Below, one piece after another: positions 2,903 through 59,932 of a DNA stretch of 64,000 nt. The DNA comes from Flavisolibacter nicotianae (lineage in GTDB: Bacteria > Bacteroidota > Bacteroidia > Chitinophagales > Chitinophagaceae), in assembly GCF_003628535.1 (NCBI RefSeq), contig NZ_RBCI01000001.1, positions 62,001 through 126,000 of the forward strand. Reading direction: 5' to 3'. The notes beneath the pieces are model-generated. The model was not told the DNA's origin. It was given only the letters and a program-made list of their open reading frames with translations, and did no database searches. Each line of letters begins with the position of its first letter. The first letter of the stretch is position 1. A program made the position numbers and the translations under genes.

Positions 2903-4900
2903 ATGCGCTACCTGAACCGAGTTCTTGTTTTTCTGGCCGCATATCTTTTTATGACAACTGCACAGGCTCAAAACCCTGTGCAGTTTCGTTTTACACAGGA
3001 AGCAGCCGGCAAAGACGTTTTGCTTAAAATCAAAGCTGTTGTCCCGAAAGGAAGTGAAATCGTTTCTGTCAAACCCATCTCAGACGAGGCTCCCATCAAT
3101 ACCCAAATCCGGTTTGATTCATCAGCGAAAGTTCAGTTGAAAGACTCTGTAAAAGAATCTGGTTTGCAAAAGCAGGTCACCGAGGCAGACTTCAACAATG
3201 CGCTTGTTACCTACTATTCCGACTCGGTGGAGTGGCAGCAGCGATTGCAGCTACCTGCTGCAGACAGCACCACCGTAAAAGGAACCATCGCCTATTTTGT
3301 CAAAAGCAATGGTGCCTTCAACAGTTATGAAGAACCGTTTGCTGTCAAAATTCACCCATCCGTACAAAGCGCTAAAACGGCAACGATCCAAAGCAAGGAC
3401 GACCTGGAAAGCCGTTCGCTTGGCTATATTTTCCTGATCTCCTTTTTGGGTGGCTTTATTGCCCTGGTTACACCTTGCGTGTTTTCGATGGTACCGGTTA
3501 CCGTTGGCTTTTTCACCAAGCGAAGCAAAAGCCGCGAACAGGGTATTCGCAACGCCATTTATTATTCCGTTTCCATTATTCTGATCTTTACGTTGCTTGG
3601 CTTCCTGGTCACGCTGATTTTTGGCCCAACAGCCTTGAACAAACTTGCCACCAACTGGATAGCCAATCTCCTGTTCTTTCTGATCTTTCTTGTCTTTGGC
3701 ATTTCGTTTCTTGGCGCATTCGATATCCAGTTGCCTTCTTCCTGGCAAACGGCAGCAGACTCCAAAGCCAACACCAGCAACTTCACGGGCATCTTTTTCA
3801 TGGCGCTTACACTGGCACTGGTTTCATTTTCGTGTACGGGGCCTATCATCGGCAACCTGATTGTGCTTGCCTCCAAAGGAAGCTATTTTGGTCCGCTGGT
3901 TGGCATGTTCGGTTTTTCGGTTGCGCTTGCTCTTCCCTTTACATTGTTTGCTCTTTTCCCGCAATGGATCAACAGCTTTGGCAAGGCCGGCGGATGGCTG
4001 AACAGCGTGAAAGTGGCACTTGGCTTCCTGGAACTGGCACTTGCACTGAAATTTTTATCCAATGCCGACCTGGCAAAAGGCTGGCGCTTGCTGGACCGGG
4101 AGATTTTTCTTTCGTTGTGGATCGTGTTGTTTGGCCTGCTGGGCTTCTATATTTTGGGTAAGATCAAATTTCACCACGACAGCGACCTGCCGAAGAACGA
4201 TTTTGAGCAACCGTACGTCAGTATTCCGCGCCTCTTCTTTGCCATCGTTGCTTTTGCCTTTACCGTGTACATGGTTCCGGGTCTTTGGGGCGCACCGCTC
4301 AAGGGAATCAGCGCTTTTCTTCCGCCCTATGGCACGCAGGATTTCAGCAACTCCGGTGGAACAGTGCCGGCCAGCACAAGTGCCGATGGAGAGATCAAAC
4401 CGGCGAAATACGTAAAGGAACTTTCGCCTTACGAACCCGAAGTCGCCAAAAAGGCCGGCCTTGTTACCTTCTATGATTACGACGAAGCGCTTGCCGCGGC
4501 ACGCAAAGCCGGGAAGCCGCTGATGCTCGACTTTACAGGCATCAACTGCATCAATTGCCGCAAGATGGAAGCACAGGTGTGGAGTCAGCCGGAAGTGATG
4601 AAGCGGCTAAAAGAAAATTTTATTATTGCATCGCTTTACACCGATGTGCAGAATATTTACCTGCCGGAAGCCGAAGAATTTGATTCGAAGGAACTGGGCG
4701 AACATGTAAACACCGTTGGTGAAAAGTTTTCGCACCTGGAAGTAAGCCGCTACGGCGTGGCTTCGCAGCCCTTCTATATCTTTCTGGATACGAAAGAACA
4801 AAAACTGGCGCCGGATGGCTATCCTTACGATCCCGATGTACAAAAATTTATTCAGCACCTGGATAATGTCGTTGCTGAATACAAAAAAAGAAAGTCGTAA
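2903..4900 (+). CDS. dsbD: DsbD-family thiol:disulfide interchange protein
   Basis: Inner-membrane reductase that carries electrons from cytoplasmic thioredoxin to the periplasm. The 665-residue protein has a signal peptide ending AQAQ, an alpha-like domain (about 25-150), a membrane domain of about eight helices (about 170-455) and a C-terminal thioredoxin fold with the CxxC pair Cys549-Cys552 in GINCINCRKM. The membrane domain keeps one cysteine in VTPCVFSMVP (Cys192) and one in SFSCTGPIIG (Cys311), the expected redox pair. The alpha-like domain, however, has no cysteine where its partner upstream has two. A strong hairpin terminator follows. Family assignment is firm; the gene symbol is by homology. 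Confidence 0.9.
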   Translation: MRYLNRVLVFLAAYLFMTTAQAQNPVQFRFTQEAAGKDVLLKIKAVVPKGSEIVSVKPISDEAPINTQIRFDSSAKVQLKDSVKESGLQKQVTEADFNNALVTYYSDSVEWQQRLQLPAADSTTVKGTIAYFVKSNGAFNSYEEPFAVKIHPSVQSAKTATIQSKDDLESRSLGYIFLISFLGGFIALVTPCVFSMVPVTVGFFTKRSKSREQGIRNAIYYSVSIILIFTLLGFLVTLIFGPTALNKLATNWIANLLFFLIFLVFGISFLGAFDIQLPSSWQTAADSKANTSNFTGIFFMALTLALVSFSCTGPIIGNLIVLASKGSYFGPLVGMFGFSVALALPFTLFALFPQWINSFGKAGGWLNSVKVALGFLELALALKFLSNADLAKGWRLLDREIFLSLWIVLFGLLGFYILGKIKFHHDSDLPKNDFEQPYVSIPRLFFAIVAFAFTVYMVPGLWGAPLKGISAFLPPYGTQDFSNSGGTVPASTSADGEIKPAKYVKELSPYEPEVAKKAGLVTFYDYDEALAAARKAGKPLMLDFTGINCINCRKMEAQVWSQPEVMKRLKENFIIASLYTDVQNIYLPEAEEFDSKELGEHVNTVGEKFSHLEVSRYGVASQPFYIFLDTKEQKLAPDGYPYDPDVQKFIQHLDNVVAEYKKRKS

Positions 4901-47427: not shown

Positions 47428-48913
47428 TTATTGACCCAAGGCTTGCGAAATCGCCTTTGTTGAATTGTTTATAATCGTTTGAGAATAGTCGCTGGTAACG
47501 TTCAACAGCGGCTGCGGATACACGCCGAGCACAAAGATGATGACCACCAGGGCCGCCAGAGCCAGCTTTTCATTCAGGCGAATGTCCACGGCATTGGCCG
47601 TCCGTTCGTTCACCGGGCCGAAAAACACTTTCTGCACCATCGTCAGCGTATAGACGGCAGCAAGGATAATACTTAACAGGGCCAACACGGTAAACACAAA
47701 ATTGTACTTGCTGTAAGCAGAGGTAAACAGCCCGGCAAACATCATGAACTCCCCGACAAAGGCATTCGTCAAGGGCAGCGAAATATTAGCGAGGGCCATG
47801 ATCACGAGCAGGGTGGCCAACGCCGGCGCCTTGGCGGCAATACCGCCCAGTTCAGAAAGCTTGCGGGTACCGAATTGCCGCTCGATCATTTCCACCACGA
47901 TCCACAGGCCAATGATGTTGATGCCGTGGTTGAACATCTGCATCATTACGCCCTGCAGGGCCAATTGTGTTTCGGAGAAAATGGCCAGCGCCATAATACC
48001 GATGTGGGCAATGGACGAATAGGCGATCAGCCGCTTCAGGTCGTTTTGCTGGATCGCCAAAATCGACGCATAGATAATCCCGATAACAGCGAGTGTGGAC
48101 ACCACGTCTCCCCAGGCATAGGCCGCCGTGGAAACAATGGGCAGCACCCAGCGGATCACGCCATACACACCCATTTTCACCATCAGTCCACTCAACACCA
48201 TTGTTACAGCCGTAGGTGATTGTTCGTAAGTATCGGGCTGCCAGGTGTGGAAAGGAAAGATGGGCATTTTCACGGCAAAGGCTGCAAACAGGAGCCAGAA
48301 AACAAGGGTCTGGTTCCAGCTTTTTGATGCAGACAGGGCGTAGAACGACTGAATGGAAAACGAATGATCGGGTGTTTGAAAATAGAGATACAACAAACCG
48401 ACCAGGCATCAGCACGGAGCCGGTAAAAGTGTAAATGAAAAACTTGAACGTCACCGGAATTCTTCTTTCGCCACCCCAGCCGGAACAAAGAAAATACACA
48501 GGGATCAGCGCCAGTTCCCAGAAGAAGTAAAACACCAGGGCATCCATGGAGGTAAAGACCCCCATCAAACCAGCCTGTGTCAACAGCATCAGGGCAAAAA
48601 AGTTATTGGGTTTGCTGTACGACGTGCGCCAGGTGGAAACAAAAATCACCGGGTACGAGATCGCCGTTAACAGGCAAAGAATCTTCGCCATGCCATCCAG
48701 CTTCAGGGAGAAGGTAGAGTTCAGGCCTCCCAACCACGGCGTGGAAAATTGCAGGGCGTCTTCGGCTTTTATAAAGCGGGTTCCCAGAACTGCGATCACC
48801 AGCGTTACCAGGGAAACCACGAGTGCCAGGATGCGAACGCCTTTCTCTTCCTTGATAAAAAAGGAGAGCAAGCCGCCGATCAATGGAACCAAAAAGAGAG
48901 ATAAAACGATCAT
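47428..48913 (-). CDS. nuoM: NADH-quinone oxidoreductase subunit M, with apparent 1-base insertion
   Basis: Antiporter-like proton-pumping subunit of complex I. Two frames together give a full NuoM of about 494 residues. The first (from ATG 48913) reads MIVLSLFLVPLIGG to FTGSVLM; the second continues LVGLLYLYFQTPDHSF and runs to SQALGQ, including KMPIFPFHTWQPDTY and KRLIAYSSIAHIGIM. The switch is at an extra base, one G of the pair 48405-48406 on the plus strand (minus strand ATGCCTGG instead of ATGCTGG). Removing it restores the whole frame. As every other nuo gene is intact, a sequencing error is likely; a true mutation would disable complex I. Confidence 0.9.
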
Positions 48914-48990
48914 ATCAAAGTCAAAATTCAAAAGCCGATTGGCAAAAGGATCTTCGCTGCTCCGGCTTTTTACTTTTTAATTTTTACTTT
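48914..48990. repeat. Family A word-repeat palindrome, nuoL-nuoM junction
   Basis: Read on the minus strand, it begins at the nuoL stop codon with TAAAAATTAAAAAGTAAAAA and GCCGG, and closes with CCGGCT-like and TTTTGAATTTTGACTTTGAT right before the nuoM ATG. The left arm AGTCAAAATT/AAAAGCCG pairs imperfectly with CGGCTTTT/TACTTTTTAA. It shares words with 56461-56535 and 59195-59277. Confidence 0.72.
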
Positions 48991-50903
48991 CTTAAGAAGA
49001 ACTGCAGCACAAACAACAGCACCATGCTGATCACCATTAGCAGCACGTAATTTCCAACCTGGCCGCTTTGCAACCAGCGCATCTGGCGTCCGCCGTAATT
49101 CACGGCCTTGCCCACCCCGTTCACCAGCGCATCGATGGTGCCTCTTTCAATGACAGTGTTGACAAAGGCGCCCAGTTTGTTCAGCGGCTTTACAATGATG
49201 GCGTCGTAGATCTCATCCACGTACCATTTGTTCTCGAGTGCCCTGGCAAGCGGCGTTTTGCGTTCTTCCCTGTAGCTGCGATAGCGCATCCAGGCAATGA
49301 TGATCGCGACAACGGCAATCACGGTGGTAAGGATCACCAGGATCCATTCTGTCGAATGCTCAACCTGTATTTCTTTGGAGGCCACAACGGGACTCAGGTA
49401 ATCAGCCAATTTTTCACCGCCGTGCATGAATAATTCCGGGATGCCGACAAAACCGCCAACGATGGACAGGACAGCCAGGATGATCAGTGGAATGGTCATG
49501 GCTGCCGGGCTTTCGTGAATGTGATGCGCCTGCTCCTCTGTTCCCCTGAAGCTTCCGCCAAACGTGATGAAAAGCAAACGGAACATATAAAAAGCCGTCA
49601 TCGCAGCCGTGAGCAAACCAACGGCATATAAAACTTTGTTGGAGGCAAACGCACTTAACAGAATGGCATCTTTGGAAAAGAAGCCGGCAAACGGTGCAAT
49701 GCCGGCAATGGCCAAACAGCCGATCAGGAAGGTTGTATAGGTAACCGGCAGTTTTTTACGCAGGCCGCCCATGTAACGAATGTCCTGTTGTCCGCCAACG
49801 GCATGAATGACAGAGCCGGAACCCAGGAACAACAGGGCCTTGAAGAAGGCATGCGTCATCACATGGAAAACGGCAGCGACATAAGCGCCGGTCCCCAAGG
49901 CCAGGAACATATAGCCTAACTGGCTGACAGTAGAATAAGCCAGCACTTTTTTAATATCATTCTGCCGCAGGGCAATGGTGGCTGCCAGGAAAGCCGTGGC
50001 CACACCGATAATCGCAATCACATTCAGGGTCAAAGGGGCTGCCGAGAACAAAAGATTGCTGCGAGCAATCATATAGATACCGGCTGTTACCATCGTGGCG
50101 GCGTGGATCAGTGCCGAAACCGGCGTAGGACCAGCCATCGCATCGGGAAGCCAGGTATAAAGAGGGATTTGGGCACTCTTACCCGTGGCACCCAGGAAAA
50201 GCAGCAAGGTAATTCCAACAATGTCGCCGGTGCTCAGCCGGTCAATCACTCCCGGAGTCAGCACATAGCTGTAATCGACCGAACCCAGTTTGGCAATCAG
50301 CCAGAACACGGCCAGCAGAAAGCCCAGGTCACCAATGCGGTTCATCACAAAGGCTTTTTTTGCCGCCTTGGTGTAGTCCACATTTTTAAACCAGTAACCG
50401 ATGAGCAGGTACGAACAAAGACCCACACCTTCCCAACCGATGAACATGATAACAAAGTTGGCACCCATCACCAGCAACAGCATCGAAAACACAAACAGGT
50501 TGAGATAGGCAAAATAGCGTCCGAAGTGATCCTGCTTTTCCTCGTGCATGTAGGCAGTCGAATACAGGTGAATCAGAAAGCCGACACCGGTAATGATCAA
50601 AAGGAACAAGGTCGAAAGCTGGTCGATCTGGAAGGCGAACGGAATGCGCAGCGCCCCTACTTTGATAAAATCGTAATAATGAAGAACCGGGTTACCCAGG
50701 ATTCTGGCACTGGAAGAAATGACTTTTTCGCCGGTAAACTTTCCCAGGTTCAGAAACGCGTAAACGCTGATGGCAAACGAACCGAGGATGACGCCGCTGC
50801 CGATAATGCCGATCAGTGTTTTTGACAAATATTTTCTGCCCAGACCATTGATCAAAAATCCCAGGAATGGAAGGAGCGGAATGAGTAGAATTAAGTTCTT
50901 CAT
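48984..50903 (-). CDS. nuoL: NADH-quinone oxidoreductase subunit L
   Basis: Largest antiporter-like subunit of complex I. The 639-residue protein has the proton-pumping core (FIGWEGVGLCSYLLIGYW, KSAQIPLYTWLPDAMAGPTP and KKVLAYSTVSQLGYM motifs) and a C-terminal extension with a long lateral helix region and a last membrane helix. The ATG at 50903 (MKNLILLIPLLP) is the family-like start. Flanked on both sides by word-repeat spacers (48914-48990 and 50911-50990). Confidence 0.97.
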   Translation of the reverse strand: MKNLILLIPLLPFLGFLINGLGRKYLSKTLIGIIGSGVILGSFAISVYAFLNLGKFTGEKVISSSARILGNPVLHYYDFIKVGALRIPFAFQIDQLSTLFLLIITGVGFLIHLYSTAYMHEEKQDHFGRYFAYLNLFVFSMLLLVMGANFVIMFIGWEGVGLCSYLLIGYWFKNVDYTKAAKKAFVMNRIGDLGFLLAVFWLIAKLGSVDYSYVLTPGVIDRLSTGDIVGITLLLFLGATGKSAQIPLYTWLPDAMAGPTPVSALIHAATMVTAGIYMIARSNLLFSAAPLTLNVIAIIGVATAFLAATIALRQNDIKKVLAYSTVSQLGYMFLALGTGAYVAAVFHVMTHAFFKALLFLGSGSVIHAVGGQQDIRYMGGLRKKLPVTYTTFLIGCLAIAGIAPFAGFFSKDAILLSAFASNKVLYAVGLLTAAMTAFYMFRLLFITFGGSFRGTEEQAHHIHESPAAMTIPLIILAVLSIVGGFVGIPELFMHGGEKLADYLSPVVASKEIQVEHSTEWILVILTTVIAVVAIIIAWMRYRSYREERKTPLARALENKWYVDEIYDAIIVKPLNKLGAFVNTVIERGTIDALVNGVGKAVNYGGRQMRWLQSGQVGNYVLLMVISMVLLFVLQFFLRK

Positions 50904-50910
50904 GTTTTTA

Positions 50911-50990
50911 TAAAGCTGCAAGCCTTAAGCTACGAGCTGCAAGCAAATACCGGATGGCTTGTAGCTTGCGGCTGATAGCTTGCCGCTTCC
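50911..50990. repeat. Family C word-repeat palindrome, nuoK-nuoL junction
   Basis: The left arm contains AAGCTGCAAGCCTTAAGCTA then GAGCTGCAAGC; the right arm contains GGCTTGTAGCTTGCGGCTGA then TAGCTTGCCGCTT. The arms are imperfect inverted copies of the word AAGCTGCAAGC. It fills the whole spacer between the nuoK stop and the nuoL start. Related sequence at 53598-53632 and 55013-55096. Confidence 0.7.
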
Positions 50991-51319
50991 TAGTGTTTTA
51001 GTCTGTTTAAAAAGTTCACATCAACCGAATGTGTATTGCGGAAAAGCATCACGATAATAGCCAGGCCCACGCTCACTTCGGCGGCGGCCACCACCATGAT
51101 GAAGAACACGAACAACTGGCCTTCGCTGCCGGCTGTTGCGCTGGTCGCTGCATTGGCCAGGTGGTGCATTTTGGAAAACGCCACCAGCAACAGGTTGACA
51201 GAGTTCAGCATCAGCTCAATACACATAAATATGATGATGGCATTGCGACGCGTCAGCACGCCAACAATCCCGATAACAAACAGGGCGATTGAAAGAAAGA
51301 TGTAGTACTTGATATCCAT
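50990..51319 (-). CDS. nuoK: NADH-quinone oxidoreductase subunit K
   Basis: Small membrane subunit of complex I in the proton path. The 109-residue protein has three helices, with the conserved membrane Glu residues in [13 protein letters not shown] and [14 protein letters not shown]. Start ATG 51319, 16 bases after the nuoJ stop. Length is normal. Confidence 0.96.
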
Positions 51320-51335
51320 AAAAAAATATAACCTC

Positions 51336-51917
51336 TTACCTGTTCAGGAAAGCGGACGGCTCGTTTTGATGAAACTCTGTTTTCACAACTTCAGCATCGG
51401 CGATCTCGTCTTCCACCCGCTTTTTTTCGCGTTTACCAATCACCACGGCGCCAACCATGGCACTCAAAAACAAAATGCTGGCAATCTCAAACGGTACGAC
51501 GTACTCTTTGAAAAGCACATTGCCCAGGTTTTGAATCAACCCGATATTGCCACTTCCCAACTCCGTCATCCTGGTTTCGGTGTTGCGCAGCGCAGCCACC
51601 AGTACCAGCAGCAAACAGCCGCCGGCAACAGCACCGGCCAGTTTGAGCCATTTGTTCTTTTGCGGCTCGGTGTCTTTACTTAGGTTCATCAGCATAATCA
51701 CAAACAGGAACAGCACCATGATGGCGCCTGCATAGACGATGATGTTGACGATGGCAAGAAACTGCGCATTCAGTAAAAGATAATGACCGGAAATGGTGAA
51801 GAAGGTCACAATGAGCCAAAGCACACTGTAGACAGGGTTCTTGCTTGTAATGACCATCAGGGCACTAAACAGTGCGATGGCGGCCAGTGCCCAGAACAGA
51901 ATTTGTGTTATACCCAT
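51336..51917 (-). CDS. nuoJ: NADH-quinone oxidoreductase subunit J
   Basis: Membrane subunit of complex I next to NuoK. The 193-residue protein has five helices; the third, [20 protein letters not shown], carries the family signature [12 protein letters not shown] and a pi-bulge region. A charged C-terminal tail follows. Start ATG 51917, 15 bases after the nuoI stop. Confidence 0.96.
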
Positions 51918-51932
51918 GCAGTCGGTTCTAAA

Positions 51933-52481
51933 TTATTTAATGCCTGTTCCAATCGTACCCTTCGCTTTTTCATATCCCTCAGGATCGGTTAGCGGATTGG
52001 GGATCAGCAGATCGTCTTTTTTGTAAATAAATCCTTTGCGACCATAGTTGGCAGGCGCAAATGTTTTTGTCAGGTAGATGGCGTCTTTGGGACAGGCCTC
52101 TTCGCACAACCCGCAGAAGATGCAGCGCAGCATGTTAATCTCGTATTTGGCGGCATATTTTTCTTCGCGGAACAGGTGTTCTTCACCGGGCTGCCGCTCG
52201 GCCGCCTCCATGGTGATGGCTTCTGCCGGGCAGGCCACCGCACACAGCCCGCAGGCGGTACAGCGCTCACGGCCTTCTTCGTCGCGGTTCAGGATATGAA
52301 GTCCGCGGAAGACATCCGAAAAAGGACGTTTTTCTTCCGGGTAACTGACAGTGGGCTTCTTTTTAAACAGGTGCGAAAACGTGATACCCATGCCCTTGAA
52401 GATGGCAGGCAGGTACAGTTTTTCCGCCAGCGTCATCGGCTTGCGCTCCACCTGTTTTTTTCTATTTGTTAATGCTTGCAT
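51933..52481 (-). CDS. nuoI: NADH-quinone oxidoreductase subunit I
   Basis: Peripheral-arm subunit of complex I carrying clusters N6a and N6b on the electron path to quinone. The 182-residue protein has two 4Fe-4S motifs, CTACGLCAVACP and CIFCGLCEEACP, after an amphipathic N-terminal region. It has a longer N-terminus and tail than E. coli NuoI but no missing ligand. Start ATG 52481. Confidence 0.97.
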   Translation of the reverse strand: MQALTNRKKQVERKPMTLAEKLYLPAIFKGMGITFSHLFKKKPTVSYPEEKRPFSDVFRGLHILNRDEEGRERCTACGLCAVACPAEAITMEAAERQPGEEHLFREEKYAAKYEINMLRCIFCGLCEEACPKDAIYLTKTFAPANYGRKGFIYKKDDLLIPNPLTDPEGYEKAKGTIGTGIK

Positions 52482-52552
52482 CGCTGTTCCTCTTCTTCGT
52501 TTAACGGCCGCAAAATTAGCCGTTCTACACGATCCTTTGTTTAAAAATTGAT

Positions 52553-53596
52553 TTATTTATTCAGCAACAAAACCACCACGGCCGTGATCAGCATGTTTAC
52601 CAAAGCCAGTGGCAGCAAGCCTTTCCAGCCCAGGTTCATCAGCTGGTCGTAGCGGAAACGCGGGATGGTCCAGCGGATCCACATGAACAGGAAGATGAAT
52701 GCAAAAGCCTTCGCCATCAGCGCCGCAAAGCCAAGCAGGCCTACCCACCAATGCGGTCCCCAGGCCGCTTCGTTCACAAACGGGATATCGTAACCGCCAA
52801 AGAACAACGTTGACATCACCACGCCGCTGATGAACATGTTGATGTATTCGGCAAACAGGTAAAAGCCCAGTTTCATGGACGAATACTCCTGGTGGTAACC
52901 AAAGTTCAATTCGTTCTCCGCTTCCGGAAGGTCGAACGGCGTACGGTTACATTCGGCCAGCGCACACACGAAAAAGATCAAAAAGCCCAACGGCTGGTAA
53001 ATGATGTTCCATCCGTGCTGAACCTGGTGCGTAACGATGGTGCTCATGCGCAGGTCACCCACCAGCATCAGCACCGCGATCAGCGAAAGACCCATGGCCA
53101 GCTCGTACGAGATCATCTGCGAAGCACCGCGGATAGCGGCGATCAGCGAAAACTTGTTGTTCGACGCCCAGCCCCCGATCATGATCCCGTATACACCCAA
53201 ACTCACCACGCCAAAAATGTAAAGAACCCCAATGTTGATGTCGGCAATCTGCAGCGGCACCTGGCGGCCGGCTACGTCGATGGTCCATCCCCAGGGAATG
53301 ACGGCACTGGTCATGGTTGCCGTAATCATGGCCAGCAAAGGTCCCATGATGAATAGCGTTTTGGAAGAGGTCAACGGAATGATCTCTTCCTTCATGAACA
53401 ACTTCACACCATCGGCCAGCGGTTGCAGCAAGCCGAAAGGACCTGCACGGTTGGGGCCTCTCCGGTCCTGCAAAAACGCCGCGATCTTTCGTTCCGCATA
53501 GGTGCTGTACATGGCCACGATCAGTGCCGTGGTCACGATCACCGCGATCAGGATAAATTTTTCAATAATGATGAACCAATCAATTTGTAGTAACAT
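52553..53596 (-). CDS. nuoH: NADH-quinone oxidoreductase subunit H
   Basis: Membrane subunit forming the quinone chamber of complex I. The 347-residue protein has eight helices with the conserved segments YAERKIAAFLQDRRGPNRAG and ECNRTPFDLPEAENEL, whose acidic residues couple quinone reduction to proton pumping. Start ATG 53596. The spacer to nuoG upstream is unusually long (240 bases) and carries a hairpin, a family C word repeat and a purine-rich tract. Confidence 0.97.
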   Translation of the reverse strand: MLLQIDWFIIIEKFILIAVIVTTALIVAMYSTYAERKIAAFLQDRRGPNRAGPFGLLQPLADGVKLFMKEEIIPLTSSKTLFIMGPLLAMITATMTSAVIPWGWTIDVAGRQVPLQIADINIGVLYIFGVVSLGVYGIMIGGWASNNKFSLIAAIRGASQMISYELAMGLSLIAVLMLVGDLRMSTIVTHQVQHGWNIIYQPLGFLIFFVCALAECNRTPFDLPEAENELNFGYHQEYSSMKLGFYLFAEYINMFISGVVMSTLFFGGYDIPFVNEAAWGPHWWVGLLGFAALMAKAFAFIFLFMWIRWTIPRFRYDQLMNLGWKGLLPLALVNMLITAVVVLLLNK

Positions 53597-53597
53597 A

Positions 53598-53632
53598 GCT
53601 ATCAGCTGTTAGCCGCAAGCTGCAAGCAGGTC
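53598..53632. repeat. Family C word-repeat half-element upstream of nuoH
   Basis: AGCTATCAGCTGTTAGCCGC followed by AAGCTGCAAGC. It matches one arm of the family C elements at 50911-50990 and 55013-55096; I do not see the second arm here. It ends directly at the nuoH start. Confidence 0.55.
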
Positions 53633-53758
53633 GCTTTTCACTTGAAGCATTTTTTTGTTTGTCAACACTCGTTCTCTTATCAACTTCCGTTGCGTCGCAC
53701 TCTTGTACGTTCAGTAATTCTATTCAACACGCTTTCGCTCTTCCTCTATTTTTCATCG

Positions 53759-53777
53759 GACACGCCAGGAGCGTGTC
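53759..53777 (-). repeat. Hairpin between nuoG and nuoH
   Basis: GACACGC (53759-53765) and GCGTGTC (53771-53777) form a perfect 7-base-pair stem with loop CAGGA. On the minus strand it stands in the long nuoG-nuoH spacer after a purine-rich stretch (53787-53835). No T run, so processing or attenuation is more likely than termination. Confidence 0.5.
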
Positions 53778-53836
53778 TTTACATATGCGTTCTCTCCTTC
53801 CTTCTTCTGTTCCTTGTTCGTCTGTTCTGCTGTTCT

Positions 53837-55006
53837 TTACGGGGTATTCGGATTTGTCGAATCCGTTCCCGCCACGTTTCTCCCCTTGCCTTCCTTCACA
53901 TCCGTCACGTTCGTTCCCACGGCTTTTGGATTGCCGTTGAAAGTAGCGTTGGTTGCCGGTCCGTTAATCACGTTCAGGTCGACCATGTTCACATCACTCA
54001 CCGCGTGAATATCGAGCAGTATCCTCGCCGCATGCCCGTGCATCACTTCCGTTAAGAATTCTTGCGGTTTTTCTATTTTCTCGTAGTGACCGGCATTGAT
54101 CACCGAGTGCCTGTCCAACCGTGTCGGGCCTTCGATCACCCAGTCACTCACCTGCTTTTTCTCAAAGCGGCATTCGTTACAGATCCATTCTTCCACTTCG
54201 CCAAACTGGTCTTTTCGGGCCGTCACACGCAGCACGTCGTCGCCACGCATCCACAGCCGTACTTTACCCTTACAGTGCGGGCAGTCGCGGTGGGCATCCA
54301 CCGGCTTGGTAAACCACACGCGGTTTTTGAAGCGGAAGGTCCGGTCGGTCAGCGCACCCACGGGGCAAACGTCGATCACGTTGCCGATCATAGGGCTTTC
54401 CAACGATTTTTGAATGTAGGTTGCGATCTGCGCATGATCGCCTCGATCCAGCACGCCATGCTCCCGGTTACCCGCTACCTGGTTAGCCGTGTGTACACAG
54501 CGGTAGCAAAGAATGCAACGGGTCATGTGCAACTGGATGTACGGACCGATATCGATGCGCTCGAAGGTCCGGCGCTTGAACTCGTAGCGGGTGGCCTCCG
54601 CACCGTGCTCGTAGCTCAGGTCCTGCAGGTCGCACTCACCAGCCTGGTCACACACCGGGCAATCGAGCGGATGGTTCAAAAGGAGGAATTCCACCACGCC
54701 TTTCCGTGCTTCCAGTACGGCCGGATTGGTAATGTTCTCGACAATCATGCCGTCCATCACCGCCGTGCGGCAACTGGCCACCAGCTTGGGCATCGGACGG
54801 GGATCGGCGGTAGAACCGGCCGCCACTCTTACCAGACAGGTACGGCAATAACCACCGGTGTTTTGCAGCTTGCTGTAATAACACATTGTTGGCGGCACAA
54901 TGTCGCCACCGATCTTGCGGGCCGCCATCAGGATGGTGGTACCGGGCTCCACTTCCACAGTGATGTTATCGATAGTAACCTTCAATAATTTTTTTTCTTC
55001 AGCCAT
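53837..55006 (-). CDS. nuoG: NADH-quinone oxidoreductase subunit G, short form
   Basis: Iron-sulfur subunit of the NADH arm of complex I. The 389-residue protein has the N-terminal 2Fe-2S domain (Cys42, Cys54, Cys57, Cys79), the His-Cys3 site in NHPLDCPVCDQAGECDLQ (His112, Cys116, Cys119, Cys125) and a 4Fe-4S site (Cys164, Cys167, Cys170 and a Cys in VIDVCPVGAL). It ends soon after a further CPHC...CNEC region, lacking the large molybdopterin-fold domain of the roughly 900-residue E. coli NuoG. Short NuoG is usual in Bacteroidota as far as I know. The last 40 or so residues are low-complexity (Asn, Thr, Gly) and look unconserved. Confidence 0.92.
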   Translation of the reverse strand: MAEEKKLLKVTIDNITVEVEPGTTILMAARKIGGDIVPPTMCYYSKLQNTGGYCRTCLVRVAAGSTADPRPMPKLVASCRTAVMDGMIVENITNPAVLEARKGVVEFLLLNHPLDCPVCDQAGECDLQDLSYEHGAEATRYEFKRRTFERIDIGPYIQLHMTRCILCYRCVHTANQVAGNREHGVLDRGDHAQIATYIQKSLESPMIGNVIDVCPVGALTDRTFRFKNRVWFTKPVDAHRDCPHCKGKVRLWMRGDDVLRVTARKDQFGEVEEWICNECRFEKKQVSDWVIEGPTRLDRHSVINAGHYEKIEKPQEFLTEVMHGHAARILLDIHAVSDVNMVDLNVINGPATNATFNGNPKAVGTNVTDVKEGKGRNVAGTDSTNPNTP

Positions 55007-55012
55007 AATGAG

Positions 55013-55096
55013 AATAAGCTTTTAGCTATTAGCTCCAAGCTGCAAGCTTTACCACGTCTCTCCTGGCTTGTCGCCAGAAGCTTGTGGCTTGCAGCG
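55013..55096. repeat. Family C word-repeat palindrome, nuoF-nuoG junction
   Basis: The left arm has AAGCTTTTAGCTATTAGCTC then CAAGCTGCAAGCTT; the right arm has AGAAGCTTGTGGCTTGCAGC. A compact inner hairpin CTGGC-ttgtc-GCCAG spans 55063-55077. Same word family as 50911-50990. Confidence 0.7.
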
Positions 55097-55104
55097 TTTT
55101 TCAA

Positions 55105-56460
55105 TCACGGTGTTGCCGCTACTTCGATCGGGTCGGCATAATGCGCCAGTCCAAAGTTTCTTTGTAATGCTTCATCGGGGTTGGTCACGTGCCATTCAAA
55201 CTCATCGCGGAAGTGACGAATGGCCGCTGCCACCGGCCAGGCTGCCGCATCGCCCAACGGGCAAATGGTGTTGCCCTCAATCTTGCTCTGGATATCCCAA
55301 AGCAGATCGATATCGCTCATCTTGCCCCTTCCGTTCTCGATGTTGGTCAGGATCTTTTCCATCCAACCCGTACCCTCGCGGCAGGGCGAACACTGCCCGC
55401 AGCTTTCGTGGCGGTAGAAACGGGCCAGCGACATGGTATGACGCACCACGCACTGGTCTTCGTCCATCACGATAAAACCACCCGAACCCATCATCGAACC
55501 GGTTGGGAAACCGCCATCAGCCAGGCTTTCGTAGGTCATCATCCGCGGCTCACCTTTGGCTGTTTTCAGCAGGAGATTGGCCGGCAGGATGGGAACAGAC
55601 GAACCGCCCGGGATACAGGCTTTCAGTCTCTTTCCGTTGGGAATACCACCGCAATATTCATCGCTGTAGATGAATTCTTCCACGGAGATGGTCATATCAA
55701 TCTCGTAAATACCGGGCTTGTTGATGTTGCCGCAGGCAGAAATCAGCTTGGTACCGGTAGACCGGCCCACGCCAATTTTTGCATACTCCTCGCCACCGAT
55801 GTTCATGATAGGAACAATAGCAGCCAGGGTCTCCACATTATTCACTACAGTTGGGCAGCCGTACAAACCTTTGACGGCCGGGAACGGCGGCTTGATACGG
55901 GGATTGCCACGCTTGCCCTCAAGCGACTCGAGCAACGCCGTTTCTTCACCGCAGATATAGGCACCGGCGCCACGCTGCACATAGATCTCACAGTCAAAGC
56001 CGGTGTTCAGGATATTTTTCCCAAGGAACCCTGCTGCCTTTGCTTCGGCAATAGCCTGCTCCAGGATGTCCACGATCCAGGCGTACTCGCCACGGATGTA
56101 GATGTAGGTGCGGTTGGAACCAAGCGCAAACGAAGAAACGATCAGGCCTTCGATCAGCAGGTGCGGGATGAATTCCATCAGGTAACGGTCTTTGAAGGTT
56201 CCCGGTTCGGATTCATCGGCATTGCACACGAGGTAACGAGGAACGCCTTCCGGCTTGGCCAGGAAGCTCCACTTCATACCTGTCGGGAACCCGGCACCAC
56301 CGCGGCCACGCAGGCCGCTTTTCTTCACCTCTTCCACGATATCGGCAGGGGCCATTTTAAAAGCCTTTTCCACGGCGGCATAACCACCGTTTTGCCGATA
56401 CACATCATACAACCTGATGTTCTCGATATGTGCGTTTTCTAATAATAATTTTCTACCCAT
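55105..56460 (-). CDS. nuoF: NADH-quinone oxidoreductase subunit F
   Basis: NADH-binding flavoprotein subunit of complex I. The 451-residue protein has the FMN/NADH site GLRGRGGAGFPTG, the GAYICGEETALLESLEG segment, and the 4Fe-4S N3 ligands in ESCGQCSPCREGTGW. All expected motifs are intact. Start ATG 56460. It follows a VOC-fold gene rather than nuoE, with a family A word repeat in the spacer. Confidence 0.97.
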   Translation of the reverse strand: MGRKLLLENAHIENIRLYDVYRQNGGYAAVEKAFKMAPADIVEEVKKSGLRGRGGAGFPTGMKWSFLAKPEGVPRYLVCNADESEPGTFKDRYLMEFIPHLLIEGLIVSSFALGSNRTYIYIRGEYAWIVDILEQAIAEAKAAGFLGKNILNTGFDCEIYVQRGAGAYICGEETALLESLEGKRGNPRIKPPFPAVKGLYGCPTVVNNVETLAAIVPIMNIGGEEYAKIGVGRSTGTKLISACGNINKPGIYEIDMTISVEEFIYSDEYCGGIPNGKRLKACIPGGSSVPILPANLLLKTAKGEPRMMTYESLADGGFPTGSMMGSGGFIVMDEDQCVVRHTMSLARFYRHESCGQCSPCREGTGWMEKILTNIENGRGKMSDIDLLWDIQSKIEGNTICPLGDAAAWPVAAAIRHFRDEFEWHVTNPDEALQRNFGLAHYADPIEVAATP

Positions 56461-56535
56461 TTATTCAAGTCAAAATTCAAACGTCAAAAAGGCATTTCCC
56501 CGTTTTGACGTTTTACTTTTTTAATTTTTACTTCT
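56461..56535. repeat. Family A word-repeat palindrome, VOC gene-nuoF junction
   Basis: On the minus strand it begins at the stop codon of the VOC gene with TAAAAATTAAAAAAGTAAAA then CGTCAAAAC, and ends with TTTTTGACGTTTGAATTTTG then ACTTGAATAA before the nuoF ATG. CGTCAAAA and TTTTGACG are the clear pairing core. Confidence 0.75.
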
Positions 56536-56935
56536 TCGGCTTGTCGTAGTTGAACATCCACTTGACACCGTACTGGTCTTGCAGCATGCCAAACGTGGCG
56601 CCCCAGAACGTATCCTGCAAAGGCATGGTCACTTTTCCGCCGTCGCTCAGGGCAGCAAAAGCCGATTGAATACTCCCGGAGTCTTTAAAGTCCAGGCTCA
56701 GGCTGACAATACCCGAATCGCTGGCGTCGACCGGACCGTCGGAAGCCATGAACAAAACATTGCCGTCCTTGACAAAATGCGTATGCATGACGTTGTCCGG
56801 ATCCATTCCCATCGGGTTTTCCGGTGCATCCGCATAACGGGAAATAGGGCCTGTTTCGCCACCCAGGGCTTTGCCGTAAAATTTCAACGCTTCTTCGCAG
56901 TTGCCTTTAAAAATGATGTAAGGAATGATTTGCAT
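56528..56935 (-). CDS. VOC-fold (glyoxalase/PhnB-like) protein inside the nuo operon
   Basis: A 135-residue protein of the PhnB/DUF1428-like branch of the vicinal oxygen chelate fold: IIPYIIFKGNCEEALKFYGKAL at the start is shown here only by its length of about 22 residues, and GATFGMLQDQYGVKWMFNY marks the end. These proteins often lack a known substrate; some act in glyoxalase- or resistance-type chemistry. It is on the nuo strand, 9 bases after the NTF2-like gene and before nuoF, so it is co-transcribed with complex I. A functional tie to complex I is not established. Confidence 0.85.
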   Translation of the reverse strand: MQIIPYIIFKGNCEEALKFYGKALGGETGPISRYADAPENPMGMDPDNVMHTHFVKDGNVLFMASDGPVDASDSGIVSLSLDFKDSGSIQSAFAALSDGGKVTMPLQDTFWGATFGMLQDQYGVKWMFNYDKPKK

Positions 56936-56944
56936 ATGCTGGTT

Positions 56945-57385
56945 TTATTTGTCTGATAGAGAAACTGCCTGTCTGCCCATCAACCGCCACTTGCCTTTCT
57001 CCTTCACCCACACAAGCATCATTGAAAAATTCAACGGCGTGGTGCTGCCGTCTGCTTTGTTTTCTTTTGCCCTGAACAGGTGCCGGACGATAGCTGCATC
57101 ATCCTCCACCAGGACCTGCACATTGCTGACGGCCGTGTCGCTGTAGGTTGATCTGTTTTTACTGATCCCATTGATTGCCTGCTCCCTTGTTTGCAGGTTC
57201 CCGTGCGAATGGCCGTAGGTTGCTTTCCTGGCAAACAAATCGTCCAACACCGCACTGTCTTTCGTGCCAAACACGGTGTGGCTTAAAAGATAGGTCCGAT
57301 CAATCAGCGTCTTTTCGTCTTTTGACTGGGCCAGGCAACTCGCTGCCGCAACCAGGAAACACATTGCAAAACAAAGGGTCTTCAT
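56945..57385 (-). CDS. Exported NTF2-like protein inside the nuo operon
   Basis: A 146-residue protein with a signal peptide (MKTLCFAMCFLVAAASCLAQ) and an NTF2-like (SnoaL/DUF4440) fold: a helical first half with LDDLFARKATYGHSHG and a final set of strands with VWVKEKGKWRLMGRQAV. Such domains bind small ligands or act as small enzymes; none is known here. Its ATG overlaps the nuoE stop (TAATG), so it is translationally coupled to a complex I subunit. The signal could alternatively be a lipoprotein signal, since a Cys lies near residue 17. Confidence 0.82.
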   Translation of the reverse strand: MKTLCFAMCFLVAAASCLAQSKDEKTLIDRTYLLSHTVFGTKDSAVLDDLFARKATYGHSHGNLQTREQAINGISKNRSTYSDTAVSNVQVLVEDDAAIVRHLFRAKENKADGSTTPLNFSMMLVWVKEKGKWRLMGRQAVSLSDK

Positions 57386-57882
57386 TAGTTATTTGTTGCT
57401 GCAGTACGCCTGCATTCGTCAATGATCTGGTCGACCTTTTCTTTCGTCAGGTGCTCTTTGTAGTGTTTGCCCATCTGCATCATTGGCGCATAGCCGCAGG
57501 CACCCAGGCATTCCACCGTTTTCAGCGTGAACAGGCCGTCGGCCGTTGTCTCGCCTACCTTGATGTTCAGCTTTTCCCTGATGTAATCGATGATGCCATC
57601 GCTGCCGTTCAGCATACAAGGACCTGTCTGGCACACTTCAAAAAGATAGCGGCCAACAGGCTTCAGGTTATACATGCTGTAAAACGTTGCAACCTCATAC
57701 ACTTCGATGGGTGTGAGTTGCAGGAGGCCTGCCACGTAATCCATGGCTTCCGCACTCAGCCAGCCGCCGTTCTCTTCCTGCGCAATGTGCAAAACAGGGA
57801 TCAGCGCACTTTTCTGTTTCCCTTCCGGGTACCGTGCAACAATCTCCTGAACCTTTTTTAGTTTTTCTTCTGAAAAATTCAT
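57385..57882 (-). CDS. nuoE: NADH-quinone oxidoreductase subunit E
   Basis: Thioredoxin-fold subunit of complex I holding the 2Fe-2S cluster N1a. The 165-residue protein has the four ligands Cys84 and Cys89 (VCQTGPCMLNG) and Cys125 and Cys129 (CLGACGYAP). Start ATG 57882. It is the first gene of the NADH module; its stop overlaps the start of an unrelated NTF2-like gene. A family B word repeat separates it from nuoD. Confidence 0.97.
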   Translation of the reverse strand: MNFSEEKLKKVQEIVARYPEGKQKSALIPVLHIAQEENGGWLSAEAMDYVAGLLQLTPIEVYEVATFYSMYNLKPVGRYLFEVCQTGPCMLNGSDGIIDYIREKLNIKVGETTADGLFTLKTVECLGACGYAPMMQMGKHYKEHLTKEKVDQIIDECRRTAATNN

Positions 57883-57890
57883 TTCTCTAA

Positions 57891-57966
57891 TTCGAAAATT
57901 TGAAAATTAGCAAATGTGAAAATGAGCTTTGTCCAAAGCATTTTCACATTTTCATATTTGCACATT
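57891..57966. repeat. Family B word-repeat palindrome, nuoD-nuoE junction
   Basis: AAATGTGAAAATG (57912-57924) pairs perfectly with CATTTTCACATTT (57939-57951), and CTTTG (57927-57931) with CAAAG (57934-57938), leaving a 2-base bulge and loop TC: an 18-base-pair hairpin. Outside it lie TTCGAAAATTTGAAAATTAG and TTCATATTTGCACATTA, more copies of the same words. Confidence 0.8.
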
Positions 57967-59194
57967 ATCCATCCATCTCCCCTGCAATCAGGTTGAGCGA
58001 AGACATCACGATGATGGCATCACTCAGCATGCTTCCTTTTACCAGTTCTTCGTAGGCCTGGTAATAAATAAAGCACGGACGGCGGATGTGGAGCCGGTAC
58101 GGGCTGCGGCCACCATCGCTGATCAGGTAATAACCCAATTCGCCGTTGGCCCCCTCCACCGCGTGATATACTTCACCGGGTGGCATTTCCACTTCTCCCA
58201 TAATGATTTTAAAGTGATAAATGAGCGCCTCCATTTTGGTGTACACGTCTTTCTTTTCGGGCAGGTAATACTCCGGAACATCCGCATGGTAAATGTCAGC
58301 CTCCGCACCTTTGAATTCCTGCACCTTGCGATAGGCCTGCTCGATAATTTTCAGCGACTCCCACATTTCTTCCTGGCGAACGATGAAGCGATCATAACAA
58401 TCGCCTGTAGAGCCCACCGGAATGACGAAGTCAAAATCCTCGTAACTGCTGTACGGCGTGTGAACCCGTACGTCATAATCCACACCGGCGGCCCGAAGAT
58501 TGGGACCGGTAAATCCATAGTTCAGGGCCCTTTCGGCACTGATGGGACCTGCACCGATGGTACGCTCCATGAAGATGCGGTTGCGCAAAAACAGGTTTTC
58601 GAATTCCTTCAATGCTTTTGGATATTCGGCCAAAAACTTCTCCAGCTTTTCGAAAGCGATGCTATTGAAATTCCGTTCAAAGCCGCCAATGCGCCCAATG
58701 TTTGTTGTCAAACGGGCACCGCAAACCTGTTCCCAGATTTCATAAATGAGCTCACGGTATTGCATCAGGTACAAAAAGCCCGTGTACGCCCCGGCATCCA
58801 CCCCAACGATCGAATTGCAGATCAGGTGATCGGCAATGCGTGCCAGCTCCATGATGATGACGCGGAGATAATCGACCCGCTTGGGCGTCTGAATGCCCAG
58901 CAATTTTTCGCAGGTCAGGTGCCAGCCAATGTTGTTGATCGGCGACGAGCAATAGTTCAACCGGTCGGTGAGGGGCGTGATCTGGTACAGTGGCCGGCGC
59001 TCGGCAATTTTTTCGATGGCCCTGTGCACATACCCGATCGTTTGCTCGGCGGAAACAATGCGTTCGCCATCCAGCTCCAGGATATTCTGGAACACGCCAT
59101 GCGTTGCGGGATGGGTGGGACCAAGGTTAATCCTCGTGGTGGTTGTTTCGATACTTCCTTCCGGAAGCGTGATATGTTTTTCTGTCGTAGACAT
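57965..59194 (-). CDS. nuoD: NADH-quinone oxidoreductase subunit D
   Basis: 49-kDa-type subunit lining the quinone site of complex I. The 409-residue protein has INLGPTHPATHGVF with the quinone-site His, GYVHRAIEKIAE, YCSSPINNIGW and the C-terminal RRPCFIYYQA region. It is not fused to NuoC, unlike in E. coli. The ATG at 59194 is preferred over a longer frame that runs into the upstream word repeat. Confidence 0.97.
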   Translation of the reverse strand: MSTTEKHITLPEGSIETTTTRINLGPTHPATHGVFQNILELDGERIVSAEQTIGYVHRAIEKIAERRPLYQITPLTDRLNYCSSPINNIGWHLTCEKLLGIQTPKRVDYLRVIIMELARIADHLICNSIVGVDAGAYTGFLYLMQYRELIYEIWEQVCGARLTTNIGRIGGFERNFNSIAFEKLEKFLAEYPKALKEFENLFLRNRIFMERTIGAGPISAERALNYGFTGPNLRAAGVDYDVRVHTPYSSYEDFDFVIPVGSTGDCYDRFIVRQEEMWESLKIIEQAYRKVQEFKGAEADIYHADVPEYYLPEKKDVYTKMEALIYHFKIIMGEVEMPPGEVYHAVEGANGELGYYLISDGGRSPYRLHIRRPCFIYYQAYEELVKGSMLSDAIIVMSSLNLIAGEMDG

Positions 59195-59277
59195 TTCTAT
59201 GTCGAAATTCAAAAGTCAAAATGAAAAACGAACTTCTCTGCTTTTGACTTTTTAGTTTTTAATTTTTACTTCTTACG
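59195..59277. repeat. Family A word-repeat palindrome, nuoC-nuoD junction
   Basis: On the minus strand, directly after the nuoC stop, GAAGTAAAAATTAAAAACTA and AAAAGTCAAAAGC lead into a loop, then TTTTGACTTTTGAATTTCGA right before the nuoD ATG. AGTCAAAA and TTTTGACT form the core stem. Same words as 48914-48990 and 56461-56535. Confidence 0.75.
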
Positions 59278-59854: not shown

Positions 59855-59932
59855 TCAATTTGAAAATTTGAAAATTTGAAAATTCGGAAATGCCCTGGTT
59901 GCACATTTGCCTATTTTCAAATTTGCACATTA
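59855..59932. repeat. Family B word-repeat palindrome, nuoB-nuoC junction
   Basis: Three tandem copies of TTTGAAAA (about 59859-59883) on the left; ATTTTCAAATTTGCACATTA on the right. AAATTTGAAAAT (59872-59883) pairs perfectly with ATTTTCAAATTT (59913-59924). Words shared with 57891-57966 and 27147-27239. Confidence 0.78.

Follow-up and report, generated by a model that had tools for sequence, protein, structure and literature searches.

What are the palindromes that lie between the genes of the nuo operon in Flavisolibacter nicotianae, and are they signals of the operon or inserts in it? The preliminary description of the window (the whole 64,000-nucleotide stretch of DNA that was analyzed) had reported one architecture at three junctions, with words kept and loops differing. 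All of this was recovered on the minus strand: at nuoL-nuoM (positions 48914 to 48991), at the junction of the VOC gene with nuoF (56464 to 56531) and at nuoC-nuoD (59200 to 59272), A-rich and T-rich arms made of AAAAGTC/AAAATTC-like heptads (family A) enclose loops that are unrelated to each other. The nuoL-nuoM copy has the apex CCG/CGG, and the copy before nuoF carries the variant AAACGTC in both arms. The claim that the A-rich arm starts at or near the upstream stop codon also proved correct, since the TAA stop of nuoL and of the VOC gene is supplied by the arm word AAG-TAA-AAATT itself, the nuoL stop codon lying within the 5' arm, and the TAA of nuoC ends 1 nt upstream of AAGTAAAAATT; the T-rich arms end at most about 10 nt from the likely next ATG. 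Complementary terminal arms are present in the window copies, weakly in that of nuoC-nuoD. The DNA-folding z-scores were -2.1, -4.9 and -0.5, respectively, and the last copy folds no better than dinucleotide shuffles, 59 of 200 of which fold as well. An Rfam scan of the window returned no family at its gathering score.

Two further word families occupy the same position in the operon, again on the minus strand. Family B (AAGCTGC/AAGCTAC heptads) forms a hairpin at nuoK-nuoL (50905 to 50990; z -1.7), was recognized by word match upstream of nuoH at nuoG-nuoH (53597 to 53640), and has heptad arms with a longer loop at nuoF-nuoG (55005 to 55105), where IVP or GxxExxY genes sit in relatives. IVP/S23p (PF05635) is an Avd-like four-helix-bundle protein known from 23S rRNA intervening sequences (IVS), while GxxExxY elements, whose arms have a period of 8 to 10 and other words, were kept separate from IVP elements. 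Family C consists of octads (GAAAATTT/AATGTG) and forms hairpins at nuoD-nuoE (57883 to 57966; z -3.5) and nuoB-nuoC (59855 to 59929; z -2.9).

The three window copies are three of many such hairpins. A genome scan for word excess, which the preliminary description had proposed as a check, found AAAAGTCAAAATTCAAAAGTCAAA with at most 3 mismatches 19 times in the 6.09-Mb genome (G000; other G numbers denote the genomes compared) in comparison to 0 when read backwards, the purely A-rich variant being weakly enriched (13 versus 7); the reversed-word control also rings in some genomes (17 control versus 9 in G256). In six genomes, this one and the Chitinophagaceae relatives sampled, stems were present in 124 of 672 spacers, 55 of them periodic, in comparison to stems in 3 shuffled and 4 coding controls; the words that make up the hairpin arms are 7 or 8 nt long and degenerate, and many vocabularies occur. 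Hairpins are scarce in divergent spacers (4 of 176), and a recount of hairpin position placed 99 of 105 within 24 nt.

Arms of the heptad or octad kind flank 54 of the 64 IVP loci examined in comparison to 29 of 327 control ORFs; they are missing at 10 loci, the best-scoring IVP of F. nicotianae among them. At nuoF-nuoG in three congeners (G013, G008 and G016), family A arms enclose an IVP ORF or its remnant, the gene being open in one, apparently frameshifted in another and reduced by internal deletion in G016, an intermediate in decay. Across 80 named nuo loci, family A arms surround 6 of the 7 IVP ORFs. No IVP ORF lies inside the three family A window copies, and family A arms are absent from all 17 IVP loci in F. 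nicotianae, so it is on relatives that the link between family A and IVP rests. An identical arm of 28 nt is common to a hairpin and an IVP element once in G025 and once in G000, where the 5' arm of the family C hairpin at nuoD-nuoE (57939 to 57966) equals the IVP-element arm at G000:C1:858830.

IVP, with up to 18 matches per genome, was found in 62 of 66 genomes with at least 5 A words in comparison to 129 of 178 other genomes; G072, G123, G254 and G131 (60% complete) have at least 5 A words and no IVP match, and G015 has 16 IVP matches and zero A words. Periodic hairpins were found in 0 of 149 spacers sampled in two IVP-less genomes in comparison to 55 of 672, a comparison uncorrected for kinship; one of the two is the congener G005, with 82 of these spacers. 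In general, these results suggest that the three palindromes are probably ORF-less, MITE-like relatives of IVS-type elements, belonging to one large class of inserted hairpins.

The preliminary description had left two options, a mobile or self-copying spacer or an mRNA stability/processing signal, and the orthologous junctions bear on both. That close relatives should carry the element was found to hold in congener G003 at nuoL-nuoM, with a differing loop, and at the VOC gene-nuoF junction, where the loop again differs and three pairs have changed on both sides, and failed at many junctions, the hairpin being often missing in relatives. A hairpin under selection in the mRNA because it stabilizes the transcript, guides its processing or insulates neighboring genes of the operon, a REP-like use, would agree with the placement behind stop codons, with the depletion in divergent spacers, and with the two-sided changes that keep pairing (19 in comparison to 11 changes that break it). 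Such a signal is nevertheless unlikely, since arm mismatches show no G.U excess on the transcribed strand (90 G.U-type in comparison to 114 A.C-type), orthologous junctions are frequently without the hairpin, the periodic form is absent from the 82 spacers sampled in G005, and both the period and the association with IVP genes would be left unexplained. The mobile option is supported: copies are dispersed, orthologous junctions have gained elements or exchanged one for another, arms are shared within genomes, and relatives have gene-bearing versions with the same arms. Bidirectional transcription terminators are a far less credible source still: the first arm is A-rich and the second T-rich, and true terminator-like stems do occur in convergent spacers (e.g., at window position 4897), but the copies sit within the nuo operon, they lack a G+C-rich stem with a U run behind it, T runs are missing from many vocabularies, and IVP-less genomes keep ordinary stems (17 of 149 spacers) while losing the periodic ones.

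Another possibility is that no mobile element is involved and that heptamer microsatellites grew by slippage and were made palindromic by template switching during replication, which is consistent with the long AAAAGTC runs in G020 and G025, with both arms changing together, and with heptamer repeats being common in bacteria (PMC4692102, PMC4679880). We consider this improbable, because arms flank IVP genes, periodic hairpins are absent from the IVP-less genomes sampled, arms of at least 20 nt are shared within genomes (6 distinct pairs in 466 in comparison to 1 in 2016), and the element at nuoI-nuoJ, found in G012 only, was gained in one step. No new insertion, shared loop or target duplication was seen, the last on inspection of empty and filled nuoI-nuoJ spacers. 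Copying of the whole element including its loop was rejected, as loops are not shared between copies.

Under the reading of these hairpins as IVS-type inserts, the elements lie inside transcripts, immediately 3' of stop codons and seldom in divergent (promoter) spacers, and each terminal inverted arm is an array of 3 to 5 degenerate words, 7 or 8 nt in length. Fuller members carry the IVP/S23p gene between arms of the same kind. Gene-bearing copies decay by internal deletion, the arms outlasting the gene, and IVP supplied in trans may spread or maintain the hairpins. Within a genus, junctions acquire elements or exchange one for another, which leaves orthologous junctions with different word dialects. 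We infer that the process acts at the DNA level, as the arms change together and their mismatches lack a G.U signature. A wider and more tentative reading is that the hairpins might represent a class of mobile DNA that encodes neither a transposase nor a reverse transcriptase. In place of a fixed end sequence, such DNA would have interchangeable arrays of 7- or 8-nt words at its ends, and it would owe its spread to an Avd-like four-helix-bundle protein recognizing the hairpin form and not the sequence; the 23S rRNA IVS would be its rRNA-dwelling branch. IVP is, to our knowledge, no known recombinase or transposase. If IVS are one branch of a many-copy family behind stop codons in ordinary operons, mobility would become testable in cultivable Bacteroidota, a large share of the palindromes in the spacers of these genomes would be accounted for, and the question would be how an element keeps the length of its word but not the word.

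The preliminary description knew of no named element of this form, which held for the exact form, as none of the matches listed from open-licence PMC papers described IVP elements with heptad arms in the spacers of operons; a named near relative does exist, namely the 23S rRNA IVS with an S23p/IVP gene. The IVS of Coxiella burnetii is described with a 28-bp stem, an optional, decaying four-helix-bundle ORF and tandem GACAGAT heptamers directly before that ORF (PMC4990558), and gene-less IVS exist (PMC2672173). The present elements are similarly small, with complementary terminal arms, heptamers and an optional, decaying four-helix-bundle ORF, full-length members with the same arms and an S23p/IVP ORF being found in relatives. 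Unlike IVS in the 23S rRNA gene, they follow stop codons in the gaps between protein genes, in the window between nuo genes, and occur in many copies and vocabularies. No function or mode of spread of IVS elements and S23p/IVP proteins is agreed according to the account in PMC4990558.

The analogy with REP/BIME elements, also drawn in the preliminary description, stands for location, both being small extragenic palindromes in many copies near gene 3' ends, and fails for the associated genes. If a RAYT (TnpA_Y1) had moved the hairpins as REPIN-like repeats, one candidate would be the Bacteroidetes subclass 2.6, whose flanks are reported to have atypical secondary structures (PMC6006769), and PF01797 was found in 42 of 58 relatives with 3 matches in this genome. 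This origin is very unlikely: none of six RAYT loci (the ORF being unplaced at one) has period-7/8 arms scoring at least 14, loci L244-L246 carry CCCTACGGGAC-type palindromes instead, RAYT counts correlate weakly with A words (rho 0.24, p 0.067), and G008 (84% complete) has 29 A words and no RAYT match. REP, BIME and REPIN elements differ further in that the present arms are arrays of 7- or 8-nt words and the loops are not shared.

Sets of TAACTGA heptamers in Beggiatoaceae, cyanobacteria and some Bacteroidetes (PMC4679880) are likewise intergenic 7-nt repeats, some adjoining stop codons, but they are direct repeats of one word, as described there without paired arms or a link to IVP. PF05635 resembles Avd of diversity-generating retroelements (PMC10053308), which share an Avd-like protein with the present elements and differ in the reverse transcriptase. 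Copying driven by such an enzyme was rejected, as no PF00078 match was obtained in 8 of 14 genomes searched, G000 included, and no reverse transcriptase was detectable in 7 of 11 IVP-bearing genomes tested; by reasoning, the adenines of the AAAAGTC words, which stay constant, also speak against adenine mutagenesis of the retroelement kind. In comparison to MITEs, the ends vary in sequence, no target duplication was seen and the gene is no known transposase; like MITEs, gene-less copies with terminal inverted repeats occur alongside gene-bearing copies, and the repeats are common to both, as in the 28-nt arms of G000 (family C) and G025 and in the family A arms around IVP ORFs in relatives.

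At three junctions of the nuo operon, the palindrome layout claimed by the preliminary description proved to be real, with arms and a loop at nuoL-nuoM (48914-48991), VOC-nuoF (56464-56531) and nuoC-nuoD (59200-59272), all on the minus strand; an A-rich arm of AAGTAAAAATTAAAAAGTA/CAAAA words (family A) is followed in all three copies by the loop and a T-rich, TTTTGACTTTTGAATTTTGACTT-like arm. The stop codons of nuoL and of the VOC gene are the TAA within the word AAG-TAA-AAATT, and that of nuoC lies 1 nt ahead of a family A word. The same position is taken in the window by AAGCTGC-like heptads at nuoK-nuoL, nuoF-nuoG and ahead of nuoH, and by GAAAATTT-like octads at nuoD-nuoE and nuoB-nuoC. 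The DNA-folding z was -2.1, -4.9 and -0.5 for the nuoL-nuoM, VOC-nuoF and nuoC-nuoD copies, respectively, the last copy thus folding no better than its own shuffles. The nuoM gene is split near 48396 into overlapping frames (window 47428-48931; ORFs 47428-48396 and 47852-48931), by either a frameshift or an assembly error.

Family A words also exceed chance: AAAAGTCAAAATTCAAAAGTCAAA, allowing at most 3 mismatches, gave 19 matches in the whole genome (G000) in comparison to 0 for the reversed word. The search found a match in 29 of 58 genomes, with 317 in G025; the reversed-word control also matched in some genomes (G016, 26 against 74), and an A-only word, with 13 matches versus 7 for its control, is poor evidence. 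In a word-independent scan of spacers of 40-260 bp (1.66 Mb of stretches, six genomes), stems scoring at least 15 were found in 124 of 672 spacers, in comparison to 3 for shuffled spacers and 4 for same-length coding pieces, and 55 of the 124 had arms of period 7 or 8. Arm self-similarity, calculated over the 75 stems in 673 spacers of the window and 80 named nuo loci, peaked at lags 7, 8 and 14 with 0.47, 0.47 and 0.43, in comparison to 0.35, 0.34 and 0.32 after shuffling.

The arm words comprise AAAAGTC, AGCTNNN, TTTGAAAA, AATTAGCT, GGTGAGT, GTTGATC, GTTGTTA, AATTAAT, ACGTGAA, GGACAAC and others, that is, many vocabularies in one hairpin form. Across one genus the nuoK-nuoL words are CAAGCT in G000, TGAGCT in G006 and G014, TCAGCT in G003, TTAGCT in G012 and family A in G016; at nuoF-nuoG the word sets differ between the close relatives G006 and G014. 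In 13 genomes of the genus, nuoI and nuoJ are separated by 7-16 nt; G012 has a 69-nt spacer containing a GGACAAC hairpin. A comparison of 71 hairpins found arms sharing at least 20 nt in 8 of 466 same-genome pairs (two of the 8 being one window element entered twice) versus 1 of 2016 between-genome pairs, and loops share at most 8 nt in the 23 listed pairs whose arms share at least 16 nt. Eleven orthologous comparisons, based on short alignments, some across unlike word families, gave 153 unchanged paired sites and 52 one-side changes, while two-sided changes kept a Watson-Crick pair in 19 cases and lost it in 11. At nuoB-nuoC, G006 and G014 have whole heptads swapped (CGTGAGC to TATGAGC, TTTGAGC to TGCGAGC) around a nearly identical loop, block-wise differences not readily ascribed to single point mutations.

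Among the 105 periodic hairpins in co-directional spacers, 64 of which come from nuo loci so that one operon is over-represented, 99 started at most 24 nt from the stop codon, counted from its first base (median 6), and the next start lay at a median distance of 17. With genes called by a simple longest-ORF rule, periodic hairpins occupied 105 of 1154 spacers between co-directional genes, 12 of 153 between convergent genes and 4 of 176 between divergent genes, the divergent class being poorer than the rest (p 0.001). If selection acted on mRNA pairing, arm mismatches should tilt to G.U on the transcribed strand; no such tilt was observed (90 G.U-type versus 114 A.C-type, p 0.11), which argues against the mRNA-signal half of the earlier interpretation. 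Its mobile-element half fared better: insertion and turnover of hairpins are well supported by their distribution, and from the evidence below we infer that the S23p four-helix-bundle protein of 23S rRNA intervening sequences (IVP, PF05635) may be the agent of spread.

A gene-bearing form was found at nuoF-nuoG of three congeners, where family A arms enclose an open four-helix-bundle ORF in G013 (TIGR02436, E 1e-22; closest solved structure 2rld, E 3e-14), the same gene, apparently frameshifted, in G008, and a remnant in G016 with most of the gene gone and both arms kept. The 80 named nuo loci contain seven IVP ORFs, and family A-like arms flank six, including that of Sediminibacterium goheungense DSM 28323 (L056). 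PF05635 matched in 48 of 58 genomes, with 17 matches in G000 and at most 18 per genome; the 14 control genomes had none. We collected 64 IVP loci: 30 from the PF05635 search, 14 more from G000 (two low-scoring loci among its 17 were left out) and 20 picked from five genomes. With 200-nt flanks, inverted arms scored at least 14 in 54 of 64 and at least 18 in 40, with a period, where clear, of 7 in 28 loci and 8 in 9. Control ORFs of similar length, a set that may still include IVP genes, gave 29 and 8 of 327 with 180-nt flanks; at this flank length, and with ORFs placed less precisely, 19 of 30 IVP loci qualified. The window nuoD-nuoE hairpin (57939-57966) has a 28-nt arm identical to that of an IVP element at G000:C1:858830, and in G025 a hairpin and an IVP element likewise have a 28-nt identical arm in common; hairpin-IVP arm sharing of at least 12 nt was found in 9 of 450 same-genome pairs and 10 of 2177 pairs from different genomes. 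Counting against the IVP reading, family A arms were found at 0 of the 17 IVP loci of G000.

Periodic hairpins were present in 55 of 672 spacers of six IVP-bearing genomes and in 0 of 149 spacers of IVP-less G005 (same genus) and G034, 200 kb each (p 1.6e-5); stems regardless of period persisted (124 of 672 versus 17 of 149). Over 58 genomes, family A word counts correlated with IVP counts (rho 0.52, p 3e-5) and less with those of RAYT, the REP-associated transposase (rho 0.24, p 0.067). Among 244 genomes of the family, an IVP match occurred in 62 of 66 with at least 5 A words versus 129 of the remaining 178 (p 2e-4), and in 25 of 25 with at least 20; these counts are raw, with reversed-word matches included, and 33 IVP-less genomes were scored by absence from the list of positives. 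All these statistics ignore kinship among genomes. Exceptions are G072, G123, G131 and G254, with A words and no IVP match, and G015, with 16 IVP matches and 0 A words. RAYT-linked, REPIN-like repeats as the source of heptad hairpins are disfavoured, as 0 of 6 RAYT loci had period 7 or 8 arms scoring at least 14 (one ORF unplaceable), and L244-L246 carry flanking CCCTACGGGAC-type palindromes, with L243 similar.

The intervening sequence in the 23S rRNA of Coxiella measures 428 nt, with a 28-bp terminal stem, a decaying S23p ORF and tandem GACAGAT heptamers directly ahead of it (PMC4990558), an anatomy which is the same as that of the spacer elements although its site, rRNA, differs. In our best reading, the window palindromes form a single word-family within a group of gene-less hairpins that are allied to these IVS/IVP elements; a search of mainly open-access literature turned up no account of IVP elements with heptad arms in the spacers of operons. 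PF05635 is resembled by Avd of diversity-generating retroelements (PMC10053308). Reverse transcriptase (PF00078) was undetected in IVP-bearing G000, G012, G016, G020, G032, G065 and G147 (7 of 11 searched) and in IVP-less G034. Rfam gave no match in the 64-kb window.

A parallel element type at the same operon junction is the GxxExxY gene (TIGR04256; PDDEXK_3) inside CGCAAAGG-like arms of period 8-10 (11 of 12 matches in 11 named loci, 15 of 24 elsewhere), often at nuoF-nuoG; nuoF-nuoG spacers with this gene and CGCAAAGG-type arms include L014, L026, L038, L049, L061, L062, L079, L089, L092 and others. Spacers of about 700 bp occur at nuoF-nuoG in G007 and G012 and at nuoH-nuoI in G007, G010 and G012, and their ORFs, judged from translations, look like nucleotidyltransferase/HEPN-type pairs. 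A repeated spacer motif, GTACAAGNGTGCGACGCAAC, lies at 53689-53700 (minus strand) of the window and in 20 of 416 loci, some overlapping (L026, L028, L029, L043, L049, L054, L062, L070, L145, L146, L192, L201-L203, L206, L207 and others); its core GTGCGACGCAAC has a single window occurrence, versus 0.02 expected. Other spacers contain long inverted repeats whose ends are of the ACCTAAGTTCCCC...CCCCTGTCCCCC type, namely in L014 (from 8462), at nuoL-nuoM of G012 and in L073 (from 19304).
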